This document shows, in pieces, positions 9,184 to 59,369 of a stretch of 64,000 bases of DNA; position 1 is the first letter of the stretch; each line of letters opens with the position of its first letter. A program made the translations under genes and the position numbers. The DNA comes from Dietzia alimentaria 72 (lineage in GTDB: Bacteria; Actinomycetota; Actinomycetes; Mycobacteriales; Mycobacteriaceae), in the NCBI RefSeq assembly GCF_000226215.1, contig NZ_AGFF01000007.1, positions 62,001-126,000 on the forward strand, read 5' to 3'. The notes beneath the pieces were generated by a model. It saw only the letters and a list, made by a program, of their open reading frames with translations. It was not told where the DNA came from and made no database searches.

Positions 9184-9969
9184 GTGCTCAGTAGGACATT
9201 GCGGACCGTTGTGGTCGCAGCCGGGGCCGTGCTGATCGCGGCTGGTTGTAGTGCCGGCGGCGACGACGGCGACACTGCCCCGGCCGAGACCCAGGCGGCG
9301 GCCGAGCAGACGGAACAGGGTGACGGCGCGGACTCCGGCGCCGAGCAGGCCGACGGGCCCGACACCTCGGGCATCCCTGACCCGGTAGCGGAGGTCAACG
9401 GCACCAAGATCTCGCGCGAGGAATTTCTCTCGGTATTCGAGAGCCAGTACAAGCAGATGTCGATGCAGGCGCAGATGACCGGCCAGCCCGTGGACGAGGA
9501 GCAGCTCAAGAAGATGACCTCGGAGGGCCTGGTCGGCACCGAGTTGCTGCTCCAGGAAGCCAAGAAGCGCGGCATCGACGTCTCCGACGACGAGGTCAAG
9601 GCCGAACTCGCGGTGTTCGCCGAGCGAAACCAGGTCAGCGCCGACGAGTTCATCACCGGTATGGGCGAGCAGGGGCTTGACCGCCAGGACGTGCTGGACC
9701 AGATCGACAAGCAGCTGCGCGTCCAGAAGCTGCTGGCCGAGGAGTACGGCGAATTCGAGGCGACCGACGCGGAGGTCGATCAGGCCTACAAGCAGGTCGC
9801 CGATCAGCAGGCCGCGATGGGCGGCGGCGAGGGCGCACAGCAGTTGCCTCCGCTCGAGGAGGTCCGCGGCGAGGTCGAGGAGCAGGTGTCGACCGAGAAG
9901 GAGGCCAAGGCGATGGAGGAACTCTCCCAGAAGCTGCGCAAGAACGCGGACGTGACCATCCACATCTGA
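9184..9969 (+). CDS. SurA-like N-terminal-domain lipoprotein
   Basis: A 261-residue membrane-anchored lipoprotein. The signal peptide ends in lipobox LIAAGC, with Cys at about residue 22. After an acidic linker rich in Asp, Glu and Ala (about 23-60), the core DPVAEVNGTKISREEFLSVFES begins a SurA_N-type chaperone fold, followed by helices to DQIDKQLRVQKLLAEEY and a charged C-terminus. The parvulin PPIase domain of full-length SurA/PrsA is missing, so a chaperone-like extracytoplasmic role is inferred rather than isomerase activity. The GTG start has AGGAG about 6 bases upstream. Cytoplasmic stress or secretion folding roles cannot be distinguished here. Confidence 0.8.
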   Translation: MLSRTLRTVVVAAGAVLIAAGCSAGGDDGDTAPAETQAAAEQTEQGDGADSGAEQADGPDTSGIPDPVAEVNGTKISREEFLSVFESQYKQMSMQAQMTGQPVDEEQLKKMTSEGLVGTELLLQEAKKRGIDVSDDEVKAELAVFAERNQVSADEFITGMGEQGLDRQDVLDQIDKQLRVQKLLAEEYGEFEATDAEVDQAYKQVADQQAAMGGGEGAQQLPPLEEVRGEVEEQVSTEKEAKAMEELSQKLRKNADVTIHI

Positions 9970-10062
9970 TCCGACGTCAGCCTCTCCGCCGCTGCATCCG
10001 GCGGTGGCGGGATCATGGCCGTATATCTGGCGGCAGCGAGTCGAGCATGATGAGATCAGCTC

Positions 10063-11640
10063 ATGCAAAGTGCAGGCCGGATACGGATACTCACCACGAC
10101 CATCGCGGCTCTGGCCACGGCGGCCGCAACAGTTGCGACGGCGACACTGCTCCACCCACCTGCTGCCGACGCGCGGACGCCGTGGCCGCCCGAGCTGGGC
10201 CCCGCCGGAACGGCCACCGTCCACGGCGACCCCGCCGCCACGGACACCCTGCCGGGCCGCGGCCCCGGGTCGAACCCGACCATCACCTCCGCGCTGACCG
10301 GTGCGACCTGCTCCACGGTCTTCGTGGGCTCGGACGGCATGCCGGTCGCGCTGTGCACCTCGTATGTCGGGCTCAATCCGCCCACCCCGCTGGCGCCGAC
10401 CGTGAAGCTGTTCCACCCGGACACCGCCGCGGTGCTGGCAGAGGTGCAGCTGGCCAAGGGGGCGCTGCTCGGCGGGGTGTACGGCTACCTCGACGACCAT
10501 GACCGCGTGGTGGTGGCCGACGGCAACCGCCGGCTCCTGGCCGTGGGCCACGAGCGCACCCCCGAGGGGCCGTGGCGCATGACGGTCGACGTCCTGGCCG
10601 ATCTGTCGTCGGCCGTCCCAGACGGCGACGCGATCACCGGCCTGATGCCCGCGTTCGACGGACGCGTGTGGTTCGCGACGTCGGGTGGGACGGTCGGCAC
10701 GGTGAGTCCCGCGGGGGGCCGCGCCAGGGCCGGCGGCCCTGGTCATGACGACGAGCTTCGCTTCCTCCGCCTACCCGCGGGGGAGAAGATCTCTAATGGA
10801 CTCACTGTGCGGCCCGGAGGCGCGTCGGTGATCACCACCCGGGCGCTCTATGAGATCGACCTCCGGGCGGACGGGATGCCCGTCGTGCGGTGGAGTCGCC
10901 CCTACAAGGTGGAGCCGGCGCGCAAGCCGGGTTTGTTGGCCCATGGTTCGGGCACGACGCCGACCTACTTCGGTCCCGGCGGTGAGTTGGTGGCGATCAC
11001 CGATGACGCCGAGCATCCGGATCTGATCGTGATGCGCCGCGATGACGGATCCGAGGTGTGCCGGATGCCCGCCTTTGCCACGACTCTGGAGCCCTCGTCC
11101 GCGGCGGCTGACGGGGTGCTGATCAAGGGGCCCGCGGTTTCGGAGAACTCGATCATCGCTTCAGGCAACGCGTTGGTATTGGTCAACACCTATGGCTTCG
11201 AATACCCACCGTTCGCCGTCGACGGTCCCGCCGCTCCCGCGTCCGCGCCGTACACCGGCGGGATGACCCGCATCGACGTGGGACCCGGCGGCGACTGCTC
11301 ACGGGCCTGGACGTCCCTGGCCCGGACCGCGTCGCTGCCCAAGCTCACCACCGGCGATGGCCTCATCCATGCGATGGCGTACGGCCCGCCCCGTGCGGAG
11401 CAGGGTCTGGGGCCGGACCTCGGGTCGATCTCTGATCAGGGTCTCGCACAGAAGTTCGGCCCGGTGGATGTGACCTCGACGGATGTCGAGACCGGCCGCG
11501 AGGTCATGCGCACATTCGTCGGGCACGCCCCGCTGGACGAGCCGATGGAACTCACCGGCACCATCGATTCCCGGGGCGATGCCCCCGGCGTGATGTGGCA
11601 GCCCACGCTCACCCGCATGCTCCGGATCGGGCCTGCCTAG
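10063..11640 (+). CDS. Secreted protein of unknown function, possibly beta-propeller-like
   Basis: A 525-residue protein with a signal peptide (about residues 1-38, AALATAAATVATATLL then a cleavage-like AADARTP). I do not recognise the family. The mature part has repeated short strands with patterns such as VWFATSGGTVGTVSP, ASVITTRALYEIDL and NALVLVNTYGFEYPP, which suggest a beta-propeller of about 45-60-residue blades, similar in feel to streptogramin-lyase-like or quinoprotein-type propellers. About seven cysteines in the mature part allow disulfides. No catalytic motif is evident. It follows the SurA-like lipoprotein by 93 bases, and the two may share a promoter. Downstream it converges on the universal stress gene. 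Confidence 0.7.
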   Translation: MQSAGRIRILTTTIAALATAAATVATATLLHPPAADARTPWPPELGPAGTATVHGDPAATDTLPGRGPGSNPTITSALTGATCSTVFVGSDGMPVALCTSYVGLNPPTPLAPTVKLFHPDTAAVLAEVQLAKGALLGGVYGYLDDHDRVVVADGNRRLLAVGHERTPEGPWRMTVDVLADLSSAVPDGDAITGLMPAFDGRVWFATSGGTVGTVSPAGGRARAGGPGHDDELRFLRLPAGEKISNGLTVRPGGASVITTRALYEIDLRADGMPVVRWSRPYKVEPARKPGLLAHGSGTTPTYFGPGGELVAITDDAEHPDLIVMRRDDGSEVCRMPAFATTLEPSSAAADGVLIKGPAVSENSIIASGNALVLVNTYGFEYPPFAVDGPAAPASAPYTGGMTRIDVGPGGDCSRAWTSLARTASLPKLTTGDGLIHAMAYGPPRAEQGLGPDLGSISDQGLAQKFGPVDVTSTDVETGREVMRTFVGHAPLDEPMELTGTIDSRGDAPGVMWQPTLTRMLRIGPA

Positions 11641-48497: not shown

Positions 48498-49589
48498 GTG
48501 AACAACACCACCGCACCGGCGTCGGCAGGTCGCCACGGCCAGAGCCGTACCCGTGCCTCCTGGCAGGTACCCGGGCTGGCCGGGGCCGTGGCGGTGGATG
48601 TGACCGACCCTGACCTCGATGCCGACGTGCGCGCCGTCCTGGCCGCCCTCGCGCTGGATGCAGCCCCGGGTGGTGACCCCTCCGCCGGCGTGCTGGTCAC
48701 GGACCGAACCGATGCCGGAGCGGGCCGCGGAAGGTCACGCGTGGTGCGGGTCGGTTCGGACCAACGGCCCCACGGCGACGACGACGAGGTTCTGCGGCTG
48801 CCCTCCGGGACCGGCGATCTGGTGGCAGCGCTCGTGGCGCAGGAACGGACATCCTCCGGTCTGCTGGTCATGGTCCAGAGTGCGGTGGGTGGCTGCGGTG
48901 CGAGCACGCTGGCGGCGGCGATAGCAGTCCGGGCCGCATCGTCAACACGCACGCTCCTGGTGGAAGCAGATCCGCGCGGCACGGGTGTCGACATCTTGCT
49001 GGGCAGCGAAACCGAGCCCGGCCTCCGTGTGGAGGACGTGCGTGCCGAGCTCGGCGGACCCGATCCGGAGGCACTCTGGGGCGCCGTCGCGATGGCACTG
49101 CCCGGGCTCGGGATCCTGGCCCGATCCCGGACCCGGCCCGCAGACGGCACGCCGGACGCCGCGACCGATGGCGCACTCGGCGCCGCGTGGGCACATCGTT
49201 CCGCGGGCGGGCTGGTGGTCTGCGACTCGGGCGCCATCAGCGGCGGGCAGGGACCCGGAGGGCCGGGGGGCGCGGACCTCGCCGTCGTGGTGACCAGGGC
49301 CGATCTCTCCGGAGCGGTGGCGGCTGCACGGGCGTTGGCCGCCGCGCCGGACGCGGTCCTGGTGGTGCGCACCGGACGGGCGGACCCGCTCCACCCGGCT
49401 GATGTCGCCGACGCCGCCGGGGTGGGGCGCTGGCACGCCCTGCCGGAGCTCGGGGCGGTCAGGCGCGCGGTCGGAGCCGGGAACCTGGCGGCCGCGCTCG
49501 GGGGCCGACGTGCAGGTCGGGGGCGTGTGCGTCGATTGACTGCTGTGGCCGATGCGGTGCTGGGGGAGGTCGGAATCGATGAACGGTGA
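48498..49589 (+). CDS. ssd: Septum-site-determining-like ATPase Ssd/TadZ-type
   Basis: A 363-residue MinD/ParA-like protein of the Ssd (Rv3660c) family, associated with tad/Flp pilus loci. The deviant P-loop region is MVQSAVGGCGASTLAAAIAV with Ser in place of the catalytic Lys pattern, and LLVEADPRGTGVDILLG is switch-like. Start uncertain: GTG at 48498 (MNNTTAP-type) is used; GTG at 48492 or an upstream start are possible, limited by the divergent HAD gene. In mycobacteria Ssd alters septation; here its tad partners downstream are truncated. It overlaps tadA by 11 bases. Confidence 0.85.
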   Translation: MNNTTAPASAGRHGQSRTRASWQVPGLAGAVAVDVTDPDLDADVRAVLAALALDAAPGGDPSAGVLVTDRTDAGAGRGRSRVVRVGSDQRPHGDDDEVLRLPSGTGDLVAALVAQERTSSGLLVMVQSAVGGCGASTLAAAIAVRAASSTRTLLVEADPRGTGVDILLGSETEPGLRVEDVRAELGGPDPEALWGAVAMALPGLGILARSRTRPADGTPDAATDGALGAAWAHRSAGGLVVCDSGAISGGQGPGGPGGADLAVVVTRADLSGAVAAARALAAAPDAVLVVRTGRADPLHPADVADAAGVGRWHALPELGAVRRAVGAGNLAAALGGRRAGRGRVRRLTAVADAVLGEVGIDER

Positions 49590-50146
49590 GGACGCGGATA
49601 CCGGGGTGCTGCCGCCGGATCTGGTGGACCGGGTGCGCGCACGCCTGGCGGGGCTCGGTGTGGAGCCCGACCCGGATGAAGTGGTGCGTGCCGTCCGCGC
49701 CGAGTCCGGCGTGCTGCACGGGCACCTCGATCTGCTGCGCACCGCCCGACTCGTGCGAGAGCATCTTGCCGGGGCCGGGCCGCTCGAAGCGCTGCTGGCC
49801 AGTCCCGGGGTGACCGATGTGGTGGTGGACGGGCCCGGTCCCGCACTGGTCGACCGCGGTGCGGGCCTCGAGGAAACTGAAGTCGTGGTGCCGACGGAGG
49901 CGGAGTTGCGCTCGCTCGCCGTCCGACTGGCCGGGCGGGCGGGGCAGCGGCTCGACGACGCCCGTCCCTGGGCCGATTGAGTGGTGCGTTCGCGCGACGG
50001 GATGGCGTGGCGACTCCATGCGGTCCTGCCGCCGGTCGCCGTCGATGGAACCTGCCTGTCACTACGGGTGTCGAGGCCTACGCAAGCGACGTTCGACAAG
50101 CTGGTCGACTCCGGCACCGTGCCCGCGGACGTTGAACCCGTGGTCG
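49579..50146 (+). pseudogene. tadA: tadA (secretion ATPase) truncated and interrupted
   Basis: The N-terminal part of a TadA/CpaF-type ATPase (Rv3659c). The ATG has GGGAGG upstream. It reads normally to DARPWAD, then meets a TGA at 49978-49980 and continues in the same frame (RLHAVLPPVAVDGTCLSLRV...FDKLVDSGTVPADVEPVV) up to about 50146. There homology to TadA stops, just before the Walker A and B regions that follow in intact members. So the gene carries both a nonsense codon and an end cut by the island. No ATPase could be made. Confidence 0.85.
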
Positions 50147-50535
50147 AATCGCCGCTGGCCATGGACGCCGCGACGACGGCGATCACGGCCACGAGCAGAA
50201 CTGCGGCCAGAGCGGCCAAATACGAGGAGAATTCACCCTCGGCCCCGAACCCGTGCCCCAAGGGGCATACGTCGCTGGACTTCAAGATGGTTTCCAGCAG
50301 CAAGGCTAAACGGATTGGCGGCAGACTACGAGAATGTGCCGAGCAGAGGGACCTGCAGCACCCACCGTCGGTACAGACCTGATTACACGCGAGCAGGGCG
50401 GAACGTCGTCGACCGACACCGGCTTACGGTCATGTCGATCGCGACAACAATGGAGCACACCTACCGTTTTTGAACGGTAGGTGTGTACACTTGTCGTAGC
50501 CGACAGGGCTGGCATCGATGAGAGGAACTTCGCGA
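50147..50535. other. Left end of island, no complete gene
   Basis: Between the cut tadA and the regulator there is no intact gene. On the minus strand, 50160-50303 reads as a membrane-like segment (EFSSYLAALAAVLLVAVIA near its centre), which is cut at the tadA junction and may be a gene fragment brought in with the island. The last 80 bases hold the promoter and hairpin of the regulator. Confidence 0.45.
50456..50485 (+). promoter_or_regulatory. Hairpin/operator at the regulator promoter
   Basis: CACACCTACCGTT (50456-50468) and AACGGTAGGTGTG (50473-50485) form perfect 13-bp arms around TTTG. A TACACT -10-like hexamer follows at 50486-50491, directly against the right arm. Such a position suits an operator bound by the downstream regulator, or an RNA hairpin if transcription begins further upstream. 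Confidence 0.6.
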
Positions 50536-51132
50536 ATGGGGATCAAATTATCGACGGGGCAGGTCGCGGAGGAGCTCGCGAGCTTGCTCGAGACCAAGTC
50601 CGGACGGCCTACTGTGACCGGCGAGAAGATCTTGACGCTCGTTGCAACCGGGCTTTTCAAGAACATCGGGTCGGGCAAGCAGGTCCGTGTTGACCGTGAC
50701 GATGTGGTCGCGCTCGCCAGCCGTACCCGCTATGTTTCAAATCCCGCAGAAATCGCCGAACTGATCTTCCGAGTGAGTGTCATAGAGTCACGGCCTGACC
50801 CGCGCCGCGATATGCACGGAAGGCCGCTACGTAGCTCGGCCGGTGTGGACTACTCGACCCCGAGCGCGCTCGGAGGCATTGAGGGAGTGTGGGAGCTAAG
50901 TCTGCCGACGGCGAATCGACTCGTTGCTGAACGAGGAATTCTTCTCGCCAGCTGCAAAGGGTATATCCATCCAAGCCATGTTCGCGAGATCGTCCGATGG
51001 GAACAGGTGGAGGACAGCCCTCGACGCTATTTTCGCACAGCGCCGGCATCCGCCACCGTGAAGAAGGTCGTCGGCAGCGGCCTGTGGATCGATGTGCCGC
51101 CGGGTCGGGAGTCCGACATCCTTGTCGGCTGA
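50536..51132 (+). CDS. Putative HTH regulator at the left of the R-M genes
   Basis: A 198-residue protein I do not recognise as a named family. The N-terminal 60 residues (TGQVAEELASLLETKSGRPT, then ILTLVATGLFKNIGSG and VDRDDVVALA) look like a MerR/excisionase-like winged helix. The middle has LSLPTANRLVAERGILLASCKGYIHPSHVREIVRW, a second possible helix-turn-helix. No catalytic motif. I chose the second ATG, with AGAGGA nine bases upstream. It converges on the R-M genes across a hairpin, and is a candidate controller (C-protein-like) or a repressor of the island. Confidence 0.6.
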   Translation: MGIKLSTGQVAEELASLLETKSGRPTVTGEKILTLVATGLFKNIGSGKQVRVDRDDVVALASRTRYVSNPAEIAELIFRVSVIESRPDPRRDMHGRPLRSSAGVDYSTPSALGGIEGVWELSLPTANRLVAERGILLASCKGYIHPSHVREIVRWEQVEDSPRRYFRTAPASATVKKVVGSGLWIDVPPGRESDILVG

Positions 51133-51144
51133 CCCTGAGGGAAG

Positions 51145-51187
51145 CGTGTACTCCGTCTGACCTGGTTCTGGGCCGGCGGAGTACACG
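51145..51187. terminator. Terminator between regulator and restriction gene
   Basis: CGTGTACTCCG (51145-51155) and CGGAGTACACG (51177-51187) form perfect 11-bp arms with a 21-base loop, in the same convergent position as the chromosomal hairpins and with a similar TGTACTCC element. Confidence 0.65.
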
Positions 51188-51199
51188 GTGGGGACTTGC

Positions 51200-51865
51200 T
51201 CAGTTCAGTCGAGTGTCAAGATACTGGCGGGCATCCTGGGCGATTAAACTTTCAGCACCTGCTGGGCGGGCTGGGTACTTGTAGGCCCACTTGCGCCCCG
51301 GATGCAGGGTGTCCCACTGCGATCGCACCCCATCTTTGCGTCCGCTTCCAGGATCGTGATTGCCGAAGCCGTCAACCACGGCGTTCCAGACCGGGCGGTA
51401 GTTGCGGATCATGGCTGACTCTCCGAGTGGAATCCAGATGTCCTCTACGACCAACCAGCGCATGGTGAAGTGGTCGAGGTCGAGATTCTCGGCCGCAAGG
51501 ATGCTGCGTCGATGCTCGCGCAGGCGCTCGGCGAGTTTTGTGGTCCTGGTGCCGCTTTCGACCACATCGTCGTCGACTCTGGCGGTATCCGGGTGCTCCT
51601 CGCCGCCTTTGCGGGCACCCTCGGGGACGGCTTTACCGACATAAATCGGGTAGACCGATCCCTCGGCATTGGCCTGGGCAAGCTTGGCGTACGGCTCGAA
51701 GTTGCCGTGGTAGTAGATCGCGTAAACCCCAGCGCCGGTGAAGATGTTGCGCCGTTTGATGTAGGTGCTCGCCTCTTCCAGCGGCACGGCCTCGGTTTGC
51801 TCGATCTGAGTGGCGACAGCCCGGGCGAGGTTTGGTCGATCGAGTGGGTTGAACGGACTGCTCAT
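51200..51865 (-). CDS. Eco29kI-family type II restriction endonuclease
   Basis: A 221-residue GIY-YIG endonuclease of the Eco29kI family, which cuts CCGCGG in its type member. All catalytic positions known for Eco29kI have equivalents: Tyr48 (GVYAIYY), Tyr75 (YPIYVGKA), Arg114 and His118 (RLREH), Glu149 and Asn161 (GESAMIR...PVWN), with the same spacing between Arg/His and Glu/Asn. The conserved tail FGNHDPGSGRKDG...SQWDTLHPGR is present. Its start overlaps the methyltransferase stop (ATGA), a normal R-M order with M first. Specificity for CCGCGG is inferred from family only. Confidence 0.9.
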   Translation of the reverse strand: MSSPFNPLDRPNLARAVATQIEQTEAVPLEEASTYIKRRNIFTGAGVYAIYYHGNFEPYAKLAQANAEGSVYPIYVGKAVPEGARKGGEEHPDTARVDDDVVESGTRTTKLAERLREHRRSILAAENLDLDHFTMRWLVVEDIWIPLGESAMIRNYRPVWNAVVDGFGNHDPGSGRKDGVRSQWDTLHPGRKWAYKYPARPAGAESLIAQDARQYLDTRLN

Positions 51866-53058
51866 GCGGTCGCCGATCGCCGAGCGGACCGGCGGCTGGC
51901 GGCCTGCGCCCTGCGGGCGTTAAACGTGGCGATGTCCAGGTGCTCGCGTACCGACAGCGACACGGTCTCCGCAAGCATGACGGGCACAGCGTTGCCGAGC
52001 TGACGCATGGCCTCGCTCCACGGGCCGTGCAAACGGTATCCATCGGGGAAGGTTTGCAGGCGGGCGGCCTCGCGCACTGTGAAGTACCGCACCGAGCCGT
52101 CGACATCGCGGAGCATGTTCTCCCCGCCGGGGACACCGTGGACGCCAGCCTTGAGCGCCTTTCCGGGTGCGTCGATGTAGGAGCCGGTGTGGCCCGGGTA
52201 AGACCGGGCGCCAAGTTGTTGCACGTGGTTAAGGAACTCGGTGCTCTCGGTCGCGGTTGGGTTTGGAAGATCGTGCAGCGCATCTCTGACAGTGCGCCAG
52301 GGCCGCAGATCCGGATCGGCGTCTCTGGGGGTGCGCACGCGGAAGTCACGGTGCGCGCTGGGCACCTGGTGGCGATCCCAGTAGCTACCGTCTTCCTGGG
52401 CGGAACGTAGTGCCCCTGATGAGTGGGTGGGCGTAGGGAAGCTCCACTCGGCGTCCACATCGTTGCGGAAGCCGACGAAGAATACCCGCCAACGCTGCTG
52501 GGGTACTCCGTAGTCTGCGGCGTTGACCAGCTTCGGTATCACGCGGTATTGCAGATCCGAACGGACTGATGTGTGTTCAGCCTGCAGGCGTGCAAAGTGG
52601 TCACCCCATGACTCTCCGGGGTTCGCGATGATCTCGGGATGTCCGAGCCGCAGCTGAATGTAGCTGTAGTACTCCGAGAAGGCCGCACGGGTCAGACCCC
52701 GGACGTTCTCGATGACGAAGGCGCGGGGCCGTAGCTCGCGAATAACCTCGGCTGTCGCTGGGAACATGTCGCGCTTATCCTCAGCCGCGTTGCCCTTGCC
52801 GCCAGCGGAGAACGGCTGGCAAGGGGGGCCACCACTGACCAGGTCGACGCCGTCGGGCACGGTCGACCAGTCGATGTCGCGGACATCGCCTTCACGGATG
52901 TCGATGCCCTGCACTAGCGAGTATCCGGCATCCCGATTCTCGCGGAGAGTGTCGCAGGCCCAGTGATTCCACTCGGCGACGATCTCAGTAGTGAAACCAG
53001 CCTGGTGTGACCCCAGGGCAAGCCCGCCGCCACCGGCGAACAACTCGACACTTCGCAT
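51862..53058 (-). CDS. DNA (cytosine-5) methyltransferase, partner of the Eco29kI-like enzyme
   Basis: A 398-residue m5C methyltransferase. Motif I is LFAGGGGLALG, the catalytic Cys80 is in GGPPCQPFSAGGKG, motif VI is ENVRG (117-121), motif VIII is QQRWRVFFVGFR, and motif X is QLGNAVPVMLAETV. The target-recognition domain (about 200-330) is between motifs VIII and IX. TAACCT ends 6 nt before the ATG with no Shine-Dalgarno, so the mRNA is leaderless and the methylase is translated first. It should protect the host sites; CCGCGG occurs in this window, for example at 2716-2721 and 4442-4447. Confidence 0.93.
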   Translation of the reverse strand: MRSVELFAGGGGLALGSHQAGFTTEIVAEWNHWACDTLRENRDAGYSLVQGIDIREGDVRDIDWSTVPDGVDLVSGGPPCQPFSAGGKGNAAEDKRDMFPATAEVIRELRPRAFVIENVRGLTRAAFSEYYSYIQLRLGHPEIIANPGESWGDHFARLQAEHTSVRSDLQYRVIPKLVNAADYGVPQQRWRVFFVGFRNDVDAEWSFPTPTHSSGALRSAQEDGSYWDRHQVPSAHRDFRVRTPRDADPDLRPWRTVRDALHDLPNPTATESTEFLNHVQQLGARSYPGHTGSYIDAPGKALKAGVHGVPGGENMLRDVDGSVRYFTVREAARLQTFPDGYRLHGPWSEAMRQLGNAVPVMLAETVSLSVREHLDIATFNARRAQAASRRSARRSATA

Positions 53059-53130
53059 ACTGACAGGTTAGCAATGTGACCTGGGGATTCTAATCAAGGC
53101 AGGGCTGAGCGAGACTGACCGAACCGCTAC

Positions 53131-53586
53131 TCAGCCGCATTGGAGAAAACACCAGCCGAGTTGATACAGGGCGTACTCGCCGGACTCGTTCGGGGTGACG
53201 GTGTAGTTGTCCTGCGGCTCCTCTCCGAAGACGAGGAGGTTACCGTCGGGTTGGATCTCGGCAAAGGGTTCGCCATCGAGCTCGGCCAGATCGTCAATAA
53301 GGTTCCGCAGCGATCCGGCATTGACGATGGGGGTCGCCCACCCGTTCCACGGCTGGCCGAATCCGATGGCGAACCACTGGTGACCTTCGTCCTGAAGACC
53401 GTCGATAGTGAAGTCGCCCCCGGCCGCTGAGCGGTCAAGCTCAGTGCCTCGCATCTGTGCTGCAGCACTGCGCAGCAGCTCAGCGTCTCGATCCTCGATA
53501 ATGGCGCGTCGGTCAGACTCGGACAATTCCGGCCAGGTGCGCCGGAGTTCGTCGCTGCCCCAGTCGGGGACGGGGGTGTCGGTCAT
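53131..53586 (-). CDS. Island hypothetical, 151 residues
   Basis: I do not recognise this family. It is acidic, with an N-terminal helical part (SESDRRAIIEDRDAELLRSAAAQ), then a beta-rich half with GFGQPWNGWATPIV and a closing GEYALYQLGWCFLQCG. No signal peptide or membrane segment. Its ATG overlaps the stop of the KfrA-like gene (ATGA), so the two act together. A decayed relative lies on the plus strand at about 56320-56617, which shows that the family recurs within this island. An immunity, antitoxin or effector role is possible but not shown. Confidence 0.65.
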   Translation of the reverse strand: MTDTPVPDWGSDELRRTWPELSESDRRAIIEDRDAELLRSAAAQMRGTELDRSAAGGDFTIDGLQDEGHQWFAIGFGQPWNGWATPIVNAGSLRNLIDDLAELDGEPFAEIQPDGNLLVFGEEPQDNYTVTPNESGEYALYQLGWCFLQCG

Positions 53587-54224
53587 GACTTCTCCTGTGT
53601 GGTGTCTGTGGTAGGCACTATCGCGGCCAGAGCCTCGCGCAATGTTGTCGCCTCGGCCTCGGCCTGGGCCACGGCCTGTTCGGCCTGGTGGATGGCCACG
53701 TGTGCCCTCTCACGAGTCTCGGCTGCGGTGGTGTCGGCCTCGTGCGCTTGTTCTCGGGCCCGGTGGGCCGCTTGCTGGGCGGTGACGATCTCCCGGGCCA
53801 GGTTCTCAACGCGAGTCTCGGCCGCGGCGGCACGGTCGACCTGCTGCTGGGCCTTAGTGGCGGCCTGCTCGGCATCGGCCAGGGCCCGGGCTTCGGACTC
53901 GAGATGTGCGGCCAGGGTGGTTTGGTGCTCGTCCCGACGGGACTGGGTGGCCATGTCCACGGCAGCGGCCCACAGGGGTGCCAGGACCGGAGCCAGACTC
54001 TCGGCCGGGATCTCGGGGGCGCGGCGTTCGGGCGCGTGGTGGCGGAGCCAGTCGGCGGCGGCATCGGTGCTGACTCGAGCGCGCTCGCGCAGCGTTCGGA
54101 TGCTGGGCCGGCGGCCGGTCTCGGCCATGAGCTCGGCGTAGGCGGCCAGAAGGGCGGCGTCACGGTCGGTGATGCTCGCGGTACTTGTGACGGTGGTGTC
54201 TGTGCTGGCCGAGAGGGTGGCCAT
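53583..54224 (-). CDS. KfrA-like coiled-coil DNA-binding protein
   Basis: A 213-residue protein. The N-terminal part (ITDRDAALLAAYAELMAETG, RPSIRTLRERARVSTDAAADWLRHH) matches the KfrA_N winged-helix domain of plasmid proteins. The rest is an Ala/Glu/Arg-rich coiled coil (about 95-200). KfrA proteins bind operator repeats near their own promoter and contribute to plasmid stability, and small versions occur near defence or partition genes. ATG at 54224 has GGAG about 10 bases upstream. Two direct GTACCTA repeats lie upstream and could be its site. Confidence 0.75.
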   Translation of the reverse strand: MATLSASTDTTVTSTASITDRDAALLAAYAELMAETGRRPSIRTLRERARVSTDAAADWLRHHAPERRAPEIPAESLAPVLAPLWAAAVDMATQSRRDEHQTTLAAHLESEARALADAEQAATKAQQQVDRAAAAETRVENLAREIVTAQQAAHRAREQAHEADTTAAETRERAHVAIHQAEQAVAQAEAEATTLREALAAIVPTTDTTQEKS

Positions 54225-54278
54225 GGCAGTACTCCGTGGAGATGAGGTGCAGATAGGCACGTGGTTCACGTCTGTTGC

Positions 54279-54295
54279 GTACCTAAGTGTACCTA
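54279..54295. promoter_or_regulatory. Direct GTACCTA repeat upstream of the KfrA-like gene
   Basis: GTACCTA occurs at 54279-54285 and again at 54289-54295, ten bases apart (one helical turn), 55 to 71 bases upstream of the start codon. Suits an autoregulatory site, but no binding data exist. Confidence 0.45.
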
Positions 54296-54469
54296 GACGG
54301 TGCGGGCTCGGGCCGCGTTCGGGACGTGACCTGCGGAGACGAGCCGGGAGTGTAATGGCGAGCTCGGCGGGATTATGCGGGTGCAAAGTTATCATTTGAA
54401 TTCGCCGTGGGCAGAATGCCGCAGTCGCCTTCGGCGCCGTGATGTACACGGTGGTGAGCGGAGACTCGA

Positions 54470-54660
54470 TCCCCGACGGTGCACGAGGCCGCCCGGCTAC
54501 AGACGTTCCCAGACCGCTACGCGCTGCACGGTCCAGGACAGAGGCCATGCGTCAGCTCTGAAACGCTGTTCCGGCAATGTTGGCCGAGACCGTCGCGCTG
54601 TCGGTGTGCGAGCACCTGGACCTGGCAAGCTCCAGGACCGGATCAAAGCACTCTAATTCC
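54470..54660 (+). pseudogene. Remnant of a second m5C methyltransferase
   Basis: Only the C-terminal part remains. In one frame it reads VHEAARLQTFPDRYALHGP, clearly like VREAARLQTFPDGYRLHGP of the intact methylase. It then shifts frame to MRQL, a TGA, and NAVPAMLAETVALSVCEHLDL, matching motif X. Both a frameshift and a nonsense codon are present, and motifs I to VIII are gone. Confidence 0.85.
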
Positions 54661-54662
54661 GG

Positions 54663-55254
54663 GAGGGCCCGTTTAACCCGCTGGACATGCAGAATCTCGC
54701 GAAGTCAGTCGTCAACCGGATTGAGGAGATGAAGCCGGTTCCGGTCGACAACGTCAAGGTGTTCCACGGAGCCGGGGTCTAACCGCCGTGCTACATCGGC
54801 GACTTCCCGGCCTACACCCGACTCGCCCAGGCTAACGCCGAATCACTAGTCCAGTCGATCTACGTCGGCAAGGCCGTTCCCAACGGCGGCCGCCGCAGGG
54901 TGGAAGTCCAGTACCAAGGCGCTCTCGTCGCGGATCCGCGAGCACGGCAAGAGCGTCCGTGCGGCCGATAACCTCGACATCGCCGACTTCCGGGCCCGCT
55001 GGCTCGTTGTCGAGGATATCTGGATCGCACTGGGCGAGTCGGCGATGATCCGCCGTCATCTGCCAGTGTGGAACGCGATGCTCGACGTCTTTGGCAGCCA
55101 TGACCCATGCAGCGGTCGGATCAGCGGCAAGCGCTCCATGTGGGATACTCTGCACCTCGGACGAGCGTTGGCCGCCAAGTACCACGCTGGCGACGACACG
55201 GCCGATCAGATAACGCAGGACGTGACTCAGTACATCATCGACCGACTCAGCTAG
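54663..55254 (+). pseudogene. Remnant of a second Eco29kI-like endonuclease
   Basis: Follows the methylase remnant in the same M-then-R order. It begins PFNPLDMQNLAKSVVNRIEE, has TAA at 54780-54782 exactly where the first catalytic Tyr should be, continues AYTRLAQANAESL...IYVGKAVPNGG, then shifts frame and goes on with RIREHGKS, ARWLVVEDIWIALGESAM and PVWNAMLDVFGSHDP to a normal end. It is clearly related to the intact enzyme but differs at many residues, so it came from a separate related system rather than from a recent copy. Confidence 0.88.
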
Positions 55255-56252
55255 ATGTTCATCGGAGGCGAAGCAAGGAACTGAAGAAAGTCATCGATAA
55301 CCGCTTGGGTGCCCGCGACAGCGGGAACCTCTTTGAAATGCCGTGCGACCTGATTCTCTAGTTCGTTTTTGGTCTTCTCATTCTTGTTAAGCGACTTGCT
55401 ACTTCGGCCACCGTGGAGGGTGTCCCACTCAGACTTCCGGCCATCTCCGCGCCCAGATCCGGGGTCATGGTTACCAAAGCCGTGTACGGGCTCGATGCCG
55501 TTGCCCTTATTCCAAACCGGGCGAAAGTACCGGATCAATTCGAGCTCGGCTGGTGATTCCCACCCGGAAGCGACAACCAGGAATCGGCATTGGAATTCCG
55601 CCAGCCCCAAATCGACCGCATGGTCGATCGAGCTTCTGTGATCCCCGAGCCGGGTGGTGAGCGCGTTGTCTTGCTCGATCACGGTGATCGCACCGTCCGG
55701 TGGGGTTGACTTGCCGACGTAGATCGGGGTCGCCGTGTGGCTGATCGCCTGGTACAAAGGGGATTTGCCCAGAAAATAAAGCGCGTACACGCCCGATCCG
55801 TAGACGTTCGGAATTGTGCTGAGCGGGATGCGCTCCTGTGCCAGCAGCGCCATCGCCGCCACCCGGCCAAACACCCGGGTGTCAGAGGGGTCGAACACCG
55901 CAGGAGGCATGGCTCGTGGGTTGATCACCGAGCGGAACTGCGCCCTCAACTCCTCCGATGCTTTGCGAAGGTTCGCCCGGTCATCACGACTTATTCCTCG
56001 CCCTCTTAGGGAATCGACCGCATCGCCAAGCGCTTCGAGGCTGACGACGATGTCCTCAACCTGCTTGTATAGAGGCATCGCCTGGTTCGTCAGCTCGATA
56101 GCTGAACCGAGCTGGGCTCGCAGTTCCTCATTAGCTTCCCGAAGACTATCGCGCTGTTGAGCACCGAGCCGGCGCCCTTGCAGGTCCTTGACGTGCTCGG
56201 TTAGCGCTGCCAGCTTTGACACGATGTCGTCGACGTTCTTCTTTAGGGTCAC
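55251..56252 (-). CDS. Solitary Eco29kI-like GIY-YIG nuclease with duplicated coiled coil
   Basis: A 333-residue protein in two parts. Residues 7-52 and 65-110 are two copies of one 46-residue helical segment (23 identical positions by my count, including LR-A-EELRAQ in both), predicted as coiled coil. The C-terminal two thirds are an Eco29kI-like GIY-YIG domain with all catalytic positions kept: Tyr in GVYALYF and PIYVGK, Arg and His in RLGDH, Glu and Asn in AELELIRYFRPVWN, and the FGNHDPGSGRGDG tail. The GTG at 56252 is used because TACCGT ends 6 nt upstream and because the frame above it lies antisense to a pseudogene. No methylase gene adjoins it. Confidence 0.78.
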   Translation of the reverse strand: MTLKKNVDDIVSKLAALTEHVKDLQGRRLGAQQRDSLREANEELRAQLGSAIELTNQAMPLYKQVEDIVVSLEALGDAVDSLRGRGISRDDRANLRKASEELRAQFRSVINPRAMPPAVFDPSDTRVFGRVAAMALLAQERIPLSTIPNVYGSGVYALYFLGKSPLYQAISHTATPIYVGKSTPPDGAITVIEQDNALTTRLGDHRSSIDHAVDLGLAEFQCRFLVVASGWESPAELELIRYFRPVWNKGNGIEPVHGFGNHDPGSGRGDGRKSEWDTLHGGRSSKSLNKNEKTKNELENQVARHFKEVPAVAGTQAVIDDFLQFLASPPMNI

Positions 56253-56319
56253 GCTCCGACGGTATAGGCCTGAGATCTTGTGGCGCGTGAGGGGTACCCC
56301 TGTTTCGCCGTCGCGGCAC

Positions 56320-56617
56320 GGACACCCCCAGAGGCAATCTTTGATCACGACTGCAGGATTCACCATATTCGGCTTCGAGCCATAGTTGGTCTGGCCCGCC
56401 GTGCCATACGTCCGGCCCTGGAACGGCTGGACCGCGCCATCCGTCACCCGCGAGGTGCTGGAGTAGGTGATCGTCGCCGCTGACGGCGAGACCCTGCACT
56501 TCATCGAGACCGCCGCTCATCTCCGGCGAAAATCTACGTCCCTGCCCCGACGGCAACTACGATCTCGGCGAGTTCGGCTGGTGCTTCATAGAATCTGATG
56601 GCTGGGCCGGCTTCTGA
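56320..56617 (+). pseudogene. Decayed relative of the 151-residue island protein
   Basis: The plus strand reads TAGFTIFGFEP, TAG, LVWPAVPYVRPWNGWTAPSV, TREVLE, TAG, VIVAADGETLHFIE, then after a frameshift GENLRPCPDGNYDLGEFGWC and FIESDGWAGF. This matches GGDFTIDGL, GQPWNGWATPIV and the QLGWCF end of the intact 151-residue protein. Stop codons TAG at 56383-56385 and 56464-56466 sit where Gln (CAG) would fit. Confidence 0.65.
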
Positions 56618-56627
56618 CGCGGATGGA

Positions 56628-57782
56628 CTACGAGTCATCACCGTCGTCACTGTCTGGCAGCTCTCCATCGGAGATCGTATCCAGGCTGCGGAGCGCATCT
56701 TGGGGATCGTATCCAGTGACGAATATATTAAGAATCTCTGCGCGCCTGGTGAGGGCCCGCCCGTCGTTGGTCGACTGGACAAAGGCACTGTACTCGCGGA
56801 GCCTCACGTTCGCCCCACGCGTGTAGTGAGGGTCGTCCTCTCCGACCTGCGCTGCTGCTTTCCGTAGCTCCTCGAAGTCCGCGAGTTTGTCTCGGTCGAC
56901 GGCTGCGGAGAACCCGGGTGAGCGGAACGCGATGTAGTACACAACTACCGTTCCAATAGAAGAGAGGAGCCAGTCGTTCTGGTCGAATACCTCTGCCATG
57001 CGATCAAGGACAGTTTGAGCCCGGTCTCGGCAGGCGTTCATCGTTTCCGGAGTGATCCGTGGCGTATTACCGTGTGTATCCAGGAATAGCTTATAAAGTG
57101 TAGACGCCTTGGTGTCCGAGATCTTGCCGTCAGTCGACATCTGATGCTCGATCGCGAGAAACTTGGCCCCTAGTTCGCGGTACTTGTAGCGGGCGTTCTT
57201 GATCGGGGAAAGGTCTTGGAGCAGGGTGTGCCAAGACAGTGCGTTCGCAGCGTCTCTAGTTGCGCCGCTGACGGCGTTCCGCTTCTCGGCCGAGTTCAGC
57301 GCGGATGCGCTATTCAATCGCTGAAACATCTCCTCGATGAGATCGCCACTGTCGCTTGTGACACGCACAATCGGAATTTCGAAGTCAATGAAACGCCGCG
57401 CTAACAGCGGGTATTTCTCCTGAAGGTCAGAGAGCGTCATCCTCGCGGCTTGGACAGTCTCATCCTCAAAGAAAATGAAATTCTCAGGTAACGAGATTTG
57501 GTCCGACAGGAAGGCCAAGATCGCTTCCAGCCGCTGTTTTCCATCAAGCACCGCATACTGGTATGTGAGTCCTTGTGGGCTTTTCCGCCTTGACGTTACA
57601 GCCTCGAAATACAGCTTCGGCACATCAAGACCGTTGATGATTGAATCTATCAGGACACTTCTCGCGCCGGGATTCCAAACGCCGCCCTCCCGCTGATAGG
57701 GAGGATTAAGATCGACGACACTGGTCATACGCATGAATCGTGAAATCGTAATTCCTGCAAGTGATTCCGTTGCGATCCTCAT
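56628..57782 (-). CDS. DUF262 (GmrS/DndB-like ParB-fold) protein
   Basis: A 384-residue protein with the DUF262 domain. Signature residues: the N-terminal NPPYQREGGVW, the YAVLDGKQRLEAILAF motif (DGQxR equivalent) and FQRLNSASALNSAEKR. DUF262 is the nucleotide-handling half of GmrSD-type modification-dependent restriction enzymes and of other defence genes; here the DUF1524 HNH nuclease half is absent. A NTP-sensing or regulatory role is likely. The ATG overlaps the FRG gene stop (ATGA). Codon use and base composition are more A+T-rich than in the chromosome around it. Confidence 0.85.
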   Translation of the reverse strand: MRIATESLAGITISRFMRMTSVVDLNPPYQREGGVWNPGARSVLIDSIINGLDVPKLYFEAVTSRRKSPQGLTYQYAVLDGKQRLEAILAFLSDQISLPENFIFFEDETVQAARMTLSDLQEKYPLLARRFIDFEIPIVRVTSDSGDLIEEMFQRLNSASALNSAEKRNAVSGATRDAANALSWHTLLQDLSPIKNARYKYRELGAKFLAIEHQMSTDGKISDTKASTLYKLFLDTHGNTPRITPETMNACRDRAQTVLDRMAEVFDQNDWLLSSIGTVVVYYIAFRSPGFSAAVDRDKLADFEELRKAAAQVGEDDPHYTRGANVRLREYSAFVQSTNDGRALTRRAEILNIFVTGYDPQDALRSLDTISDGELPDSDDGDDS

Positions 57783-58558
57783 GCTCGTCCCCGTCCGTGG
57801 CCGGTCTTGATTCGCTTTGCGATGCGGTCTAGGTCTCGGTATATGGAAGCCTCATTGAAACCTAGCGCGTCGAGCTGCTCACGAAGCGCGGACTTGGTGT
57901 CGCCAGGAACTGGAAACGATTGAAGAGCTTTCGCCTTACGAAGCGGCTGCTGGTCAGCTGTCACAGGAGGAATCTGCGCGACGGTGAATGTGCCACTTTG
58001 AAACCGAATCCGGTCGAAAATCATCGGCGCAACCACTGAACGAGGCTTCGAAGGGTCGTCGGCATCCTTGCCCGGGAGATACTTCGTGAGCTTTTCGTCG
58101 GTGTCGGATAGCAGCCGGGGATGGCCGTCGTCGCTGTCGCCGGCTTCGGAATTCAGATCATTGGGATTGAGGATAAAAAACTCGCCGTCGGGTTCGACCC
58201 CCGTATCCTTCGCGGCCGGATCAGGCTCGCATGCGAAGTATAGCGCGACCAGCGGGCTCTGCGACCAGTCGAGTAAACGAGTGGGCAGTCCGTGGTGCTG
58301 AGCGAATGTGATCCAGCCCCAGTTATCGAAGGGGAACTGACGCCCCGTGGCGGCTGCTTCTTGGCGAAACCGTGCAAGCATCGCCCGTTCGTTCAAATGT
58401 CTGTTCTCGGGTCGTAGTGCTGACGCTTCCAATCCCCAGGTCCAATCTCGGTGACCGCGATACCACAGTTCGCGACCATCTCCAGTGATCGGCGAGAGCA
58501 CCTCCATCAATTCCCCGACGGAAGCGATCTGTGGGCCGTGGTCAGCGTCGTCACTCAT
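57779..58558 (-). CDS. FRG-domain protein, first gene of an FRG-DUF262 pair
   Basis: A 259-residue protein with an FRG domain: ELWYRGHRDWTWGLEASAL (the F/Y-R-G motif), a helix with LARFRQEAAATGRQFP, and FAQHHGLPTRLLDWSQSPLVALYFAC, the strongest part of the family. FRG proteins occur in abortive-infection and other defence loci; catalysis is not defined. TACAGT ends 6 nt before the ATG with no Shine-Dalgarno, so the FRG-DUF262 operon starts here as a leaderless mRNA. Confidence 0.85.
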   Translation of the reverse strand: MSDDADHGPQIASVGELMEVLSPITGDGRELWYRGHRDWTWGLEASALRPENRHLNERAMLARFRQEAAATGRQFPFDNWGWITFAQHHGLPTRLLDWSQSPLVALYFACEPDPAAKDTGVEPDGEFFILNPNDLNSEAGDSDDGHPRLLSDTDEKLTKYLPGKDADDPSKPRSVVAPMIFDRIRFQSGTFTVAQIPPVTADQQPLRKAKALQSFPVPGDTKSALREQLDALGFNEASIYRDLDRIAKRIKTGHGRGRA

Positions 58559-58624
58559 AAGGGAACTGTAGCGGCACTCGGGCGATCGTCGGGAAGCGGA
58601 ACGATCCACAAATCCGCTGATGGT

Positions 58625-59330
58625 TCATCCTTTGGCGTGGCGCGTGAGGGTCTCGAACATCCGATCGACCCGTTGGCGTACTCTCGTGCCGACTGGGCCA
58701 GCCGAGACCGAACCGCGTCGCACACGGGTCCGATCCACCCCATCTGCGGCGTTTTGTACTGCGCCGACGCGCATCGGTACTGCGGCTGCCTCCCCGTGCC
58801 GCCCTTGAGTCGGTACGCCGGGCGCCCGCACGCGCCGCAGAAAATCACCTGCGTGGGCAACGCCGACGAGCGCTTGGTCGGCACTTTCTTGTTCTCTCGG
58901 CCCGCCAGCTCCTTGCCGACGCGGTCGAACACGGCCTGTGTCGGAATCGGGGCCGCCCGCACGACCGGTGCCCCCGTCTCGTCCACGATGACAAGTCTCC
59001 GGGCCAAGGACACGATTGCCTTTGTCATCTCGCAGAGGCTGTCCGTCCACGGAGAGCACCGCGTCTCTGGTGACAACACGGCCCAGCATGGCCAGCGTGG
59101 TCAGCTCAGCGCACGTTTCAGCGGGGCGCTGTGCCACTGGTGCCCATGGACCTGGCGTTTCCGGAGCTGCGCAAGGCGATCCTGCGGAGTCAGGGCCTTC
59201 TGCGTCGTCGAGTCGTGGGCGGTGCTCCTTAGCGACTCGTGCTTCAACACCCGATCGACGACTTCGCGGTCGGTCGCGACCTGCTCGGCGTCCTGAATTA
59301 GCCGGTAGTGCGCGCCCTCCTTATCCGGGA
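58625..59330 (-). pseudogene. Serine recombinase (large) C-terminal remnant
   Basis: Several minus-strand frames together spell the C-terminal half of a large serine recombinase: RLIQDAEQVATDREVVDRVL and QLRKRQVHGHQWHSAPLKRA, then MLGRVVTRDAVLSVDGQPLR, then PTQVIFCGACGRPAYRLKGG with YRCASA, the zinc ribbon. At least three frames are needed, so it is dead. The catalytic serine domain is missing. It abuts the tadE-like gene and may be what is left of the enzyme that inserted the island. Confidence 0.82.
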
Positions 59331-59369
59331 TTGCTGCGACGGTTCCGGAGGGGCCGGGATGCGGGGTCG

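Follow-up and report, generated by a model that had tools for sequence, protein, structure and literature searches.

The endonuclease gene

At 55251-56252 on the minus strand of the window (the whole 64-kb stretch of DNA that was analysed) lies a gene with a GTG start that encodes a protein of 333 aa, here termed R'. It is an Eco29kI-family GIY-YIG endonuclease with a doubled N-terminal helical hairpin. The RE_Eco29kI/GIY-YIG domain occupies residues 151-305 (55338-55802, minus strand), to which the Pfam family RE_Eco29kI (PF09517) matches with an E-value of 5.7e-39 and a score of 134 bits, the gathering score being 30.8. PADLOC labels the protein a Type II endonuclease (7.2e-29), and R.Eco29kI chains are its best matches of known structure by sequence (4e-20). 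Foldseek returns 11 significant matches for the model of R', all of them R.Eco29kI chains (best E-value 7.3e-11; TM-score by target 0.70-0.73). The active site of Eco29kI, assigned by mutagenesis and modelling, comprises Y49, Y76, R104, H108, E142 and N154 (PMC1952068). When R' is aligned to the pECO29 enzyme, the counterparts of these six residues are all kept, in the same order, as Y156, Y178, R201, H205, E236 and N248. By its domain, its active-site residues and its predicted fold, R' is a member of the Eco29kI-type restriction endonuclease family, and the original prediction of an Eco29kI-like GIY-YIG nuclease with all catalytic positions is borne out. Its best reading is as a Type II restriction endonuclease of this kind, catalytically competent and presumably active.

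In R', the GIY-YIG part comes after the coil, only about 30 residues remain beyond the Eco29kI domain, and no sensor domain could be detected at the C-terminus. CMoRE, in contrast, has an N-terminal GIY-YIG domain and a C-terminal modification sensor. A longer ORF of 417 aa, beginning at a start further upstream, was rejected because the GTG of R' aligns with the GTG of its relative at locus L016, and also because the added upstream DNA resembles the decayed end of another gene. There is no clear ribosome-binding site ahead of the GTG of R', whose start is 375 bp downstream of the previous gene on the same strand.

The N-terminal helical repeat

The front end of R' consists of two repeat copies, residues 3-52 (56097-56246, minus strand) and residues 61-110 (55923-56072, minus strand). 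At an offset of 58, 25 of 50 residues are identical, and the BLOSUM score of this internal repeat is 105, compared with a maximum of 48 in 1000 shuffles. The duplicated coiled-coil front end had been described beforehand as 46 residues, half identical, which comes close to these 50-residue segments. In the first helix, hydrophobic residues occupy 7 of 7 a/d heptad positions in copy 1 and 7 of 8 in copy 2 (shuffle p 0.0002 and 0.008, respectively). Since this heptad pattern is almost perfect in both copies, "coiled coil" appears to be a fair term for the front end. The AlphaFold model (mean pLDDT 83.7) places helices at residues 2-25, 31-82 and 89-110 before the nuclease core, with the middle helix predicted to span the junction between the two copies. 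An in-frame ATG at residue 59 could serve as the start of a single-copy form. The coil had no significant Foldseek match in the PDB or among viral models. Three other genomes (L046-L048) gave weak matches to the N-terminal region, which were discarded because they look like chance in high-GC ORFs.

The doubling of the hairpin was seen only in the R' of the window. The L016 relative, 63% identical to it, has one copy, and its AlphaFold model is predicted as one hairpin. The two copies in the window are separated by a dS of about 1.2, below the saturated dS between the window and L016, so the doubling is probably younger than the split of the two, though not recent. Assembly differs within the family, Cfr42I being a tetramer and Eco29kI a dimer on DNA (PMC4081073). 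The predicted hairpins most likely drive the association of subunits, as a dimer or a tetramer, and a two-site tetramer like that of Cfr42I is made plausible by the coil.

An intact system and a decayed cassette in one island

The intact methylase-R pair lies 2.2 kb from R' in the same island. It consists of a C5-cytosine methylase of the Eco29kI type, the likely protector (51862-53058, minus strand), and a canonical endonuclease R of the same type (51200-51865, minus strand), which represents a separate M-R lineage. The methylase is the only intact one of its kind found in the genome. A small gene adjoins it (53131-53586, minus strand). The island itself (window positions 49552-59348) lies within a tad pilus locus; relative to the congener G088 (locus L095), about 2.4 kb starting at the end of tadA are absent there, and a short scrap of tad persists inside the island at 54403-54478.

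Tail to tail with R' stands a wrecked methylase-R pair on the plus strand (54476-55254). Its methylase part (54476-54636, plus strand) retains only approximately residues 327-380 and carries a frameshift and a stop; the host tad scrap (54403-54478, plus strand; a 77-column match) lies at its start. The remnant of the cognate R gene (54669-55254, plus strand) covers residues 4-200, is broken by an in-frame stop and a frameshift, and converges with R' such that the stop codons overlap. DNA identity between the plus-strand wreck and the methylase-R end of L011, a locus in a genome (G275) of the same family as the source, is 75%. Instead of the intact cognate methylase that adjoins the endonuclease in an Eco29kI-type system, R' has a fragment with a stop and a frameshift next to it. 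The earlier statement that R' has no methylase of its own thus stands in that none is intact; it falls short in that a broken methylase and R remnant touches the stop codon of R' and that, 2.2 kb away, a methylase of that family is intact. "Solitary", accordingly, is not an apt description of a gene that adjoins the wreck of its cognate methylase-R pair and has an intact Eco29kI-type pair so close by.

The wrecked R is the sister of the R genes in the M-R-R' cassettes of L011 and L016 (support 99/94), and the intact R is the sister of the R of L013 (support 100/99). These separate affinities indicate that the window formerly held an M-R-R' cassette and gained or kept another M-R system besides. 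Decay has affected the parts of the cassette unequally: there are no lesions in the 1002 bp of R', as against at least 4 in the adjoining 777-bp remnant, and an equal decay time would, as a rough estimate, predict about 5 in R'. Between the core of R' and that of L016, dN is 0.21 and dS about 2.3; on the evidence of its sequence, the core is under purifying selection.

Upstream of R', the stretch at 56359-56606 is 82% identical to the DNA upstream of the R' of L011 (10470-10719). It seems to derive, by decay, from the end of a small plus-strand gene, by its look a relative of the end of the 53131-53586 gene. Both flanks of R' are 75-82% identical in DNA between L011 and the window, yet the R' proteins share only about 38-40% identity, as though an exchange had taken place in the R' slot.

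Relatives of R' and their gene contexts

Loci were drawn from genomes, plasmids, phages and viral contigs, and a tree of 51 proteins was built; a wider alignment yielded 39 loci from viral contigs, where a three-sequence scan gave none. The R' clade has 11 members (support 100/99) and forms one group in 100% of the bootstrap trees. All members whose front end is present have a helical stretch of about 45-70 residues ahead of the canonical R start. In 6 of the 11 (L017, L019, L021, L057, L058 and L059), a methylase and R' occur with no other Eco29kI-type enzyme; L017 is a Pseudosulfitobacter plasmid and L019 a Xanthomonas plasmid. In two others, both from actinobacteria, R' is a second endonuclease after M-R. 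One of them, L011, has the order M(+) R(+) R'(-) with three open genes and R' at 9430-10344; the other, L016 of Mycobacterium sp. D16Q13, has the order Vsr, M, R, R'. The remaining members are the window and two loci at contig edges (L022 and L056). The clade is, by these comparisons, an Eco29kI-type subfamily with a helical extension, within which the doubled hairpin alone is private to the R' of the window. It had been proposed to look for proteins of the same two-part layout and for their neighbourhoods; this layout proves to be the rule for the whole clade, usually adjoining its own methylase, and the belief that no system of this design had been described does not hold.

Most of the Eco29kI-type enzymes surveyed adjoin a C5-methylase, often together with a Vsr gene. 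In at least two settings, judging from gene order and tree, one methylase is common to two divergent Eco29kI-type enzymes, an arrangement that is easily missed, as all such endonucleases are annotated alike. On a Sphingomonas plasmid outside the tree (L018, 4277-6949), a Vsr gene accompanies a decaying methylase-R' pair that is split over several frames. Locus L025 (6769-10714) has two divergent Eco29kI-type endonucleases around one methylase, again with a Vsr gene. A Deinococcus radiodurans gene of the Eco29kI type (L035, 4037-8465) stands directly before a Qat defence operon.

The methylase recognition region

C5-methylases read their target between motifs VIII and IX. The methylases considered here have the core GAR.YPGHTGS..D.P.K.LKAG.HGVPGGENM in common in this region. 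Between the window methylase and M.Eco29kI, identity is 69% in the 49-column core and 43% elsewhere. In the same core, its identity is 71-75% with the R'-only methylases of L017 and L019, a lower 53% with the methylase of L021, and 88-94% with the methylases found in M-R-R' cassettes. In the tree, at least three lineages contain methylases that accompany R' alone; the methylases of the M-R-R' cassettes group with those of canonical R.

M.Eco29kI protects CCGCGG, its system cutting CCGC/GG. From the similarity of the methylases, R' probably cuts CCGCGG as well. Because the methylases share the recognition-region core of M.Eco29kI, the intact methylase of the window is probably what shields the host from R'. 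Dependence on the methylase next door was the first of several controls that the original prediction had offered for R', and the shared core, in what is the only intact methylase of this kind found in the genome, lends it support. Avoidance of CCGCGG was not found in the 64 kb (103 sites observed, 114 expected), and an active enzyme without protection should therefore be lethal.

Comparison with described systems

The Eco29kI restriction-modification system of pECO29 (CCGC/GG) resembles the window in the catalytic domain, the six active-site residues, the fold and the core of the methylase recognition region. R' differs from it by the extra, doubled N-terminal helical region and by the broken state of its own methylase, and the identity over the domain is about 36%. 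Closer in design are the M-R' systems of Pseudosulfitobacter pDSM107133_f (WP_205387840) and of Xanthomonas plasmids (WP_223670422), which belong to the same clade, have the same two-part layout and are annotated as Eco29kI family; unlike the R' of the window, they have one copy of the hairpin and an intact adjoining methylase. The cassette of Mycobacterium sp. D16Q13 contains the closest R' (63%), together with a methylase and with a canonical R that is a relative of the remnant in the window. Its three genes are open, however, its R' has one hairpin copy, and M, R and R' are all encoded on one strand.

The DraI system of Deinococcus radiodurans likewise includes an Eco29kI-type endonuclease without an adjoining methylase, R.DraR1, whose protector is about 10 genes away (PMC10855626). 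R.DraR1, unlike R', goes with an m4C methylase, is a homodimer (PMC10855626) and falls outside the R' clade in the tree. A class of solitary endonucleases that neighbour corrupted methylase genes has been catalogued (PMC3488263), and R', full-length with a ruined methylase gene at its side, resembles it. By the rule of that catalogue R' does not count as "solitary", because an intact and probably isospecific methylase (51862-53058) lies within 4 kb.

Origin and maintenance of R'

R' is likely to be a Type II enzyme, probably cutting CCGCGG, that was left over from a decayed cassette and is guarded by the neighbouring methylase. According to this explanation, R' would once have been the second endonuclease of a methylase-R-R' cassette, of which the methylase and R were destroyed. 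It would owe its survival to a second, intact Eco29kI-type system of the island, whose methylase would modify the same site: R' would cut unmethylated CCGCGG, and methylation by the neighbouring system would block the cutting. An apparent nuclease without an off-switch would thereby become a case of cross-protection, in which an orphan restriction enzyme is safe through the methylase of another system.

It is unlikely that R' is an inert leftover, unexpressed or inactive, and merely less far advanced in the decay that ruined the methylase and R. The partners of its cassette are pseudogenes, no strong ribosome-binding site is visible before its GTG, and an orphan endonuclease is safe only when silent or protected, all of which would suit such a fate. 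The lesion-free reading frame of R' beside its damaged neighbours, the full set of catalytic residues and the constraint on the core relative to L016 argue against it, although the argument from lesions would be less compelling if the partners had been lost, or R' exchanged, only recently, and selection that preceded a recent loss would leave the same signal. Similarly unlikely is a mixed oligomer of R and R', or an R' that adds a function to R, such as second-site-dependent cutting, from which M-R-R' cassettes would gain. The arrangement M-R-R' is kept at two loci (L011 and L016), L025 has two other divergent enzymes of the type around one methylase, and Type II enzymes made of two genes exist, for example LlaJI (as cited in PMC3488263) and BbvCI (PMC6326814). 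In six relatives, however, R' and a methylase suffice; the cognate R of the window is broken, and the R that remains there is of another lineage.

Two further proposals are both very improbable. A modification-dependent, Type IV-like R' that attacks modified phage DNA would need no methylase; a one-gene GIY-YIG Type IV system is known (CMoRE, PMC12923530), and the relative R.DraR1 still cuts m5C-methylated CCGCGG (PMC10855626). The relatives of R', however, pair with a C5-methylase as ordinary restriction-modification systems, in which cutting of methylated sites would kill the host, and R' has no C-terminal sensor domain that could be found. The suggestion made at the outset that R' recognises modified DNA is thus hard to maintain when six relatives are each the sole Eco29kI-type enzyme beside an Eco29kI-type C5-methylase. 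The coiled coil might instead keep the enzyme inactive until infection, through auto-inhibition by oligomerisation, and the good heptads of the predicted coil, doubled in the window, would fit this. Relatives that have an ordinary methylase, and so no need of a lock, nevertheless possess single-copy hairpins, and no partner gene or sensor is consistently found with R'.

In systems with two divergent endonucleases under one methylase, the second, a coiled-coil form, might differ in its assembly (a two-site tetramer, for example) and so provide redundancy against the anti-restriction of phages and plasmids, and the window would then represent its retention under the methylase of another system after loss of its own partners; we regard this as a rather doubtful extension. 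Upstream of R', on the same strand, an overlapping pair of genes (56628-58609, minus strand) encodes an FRG-domain protein (PDC-S15-like, 2.5e-50) and a DUF262/GmrSD_N protein (NsnA-like, 1.5e-22), possibly another defence system.
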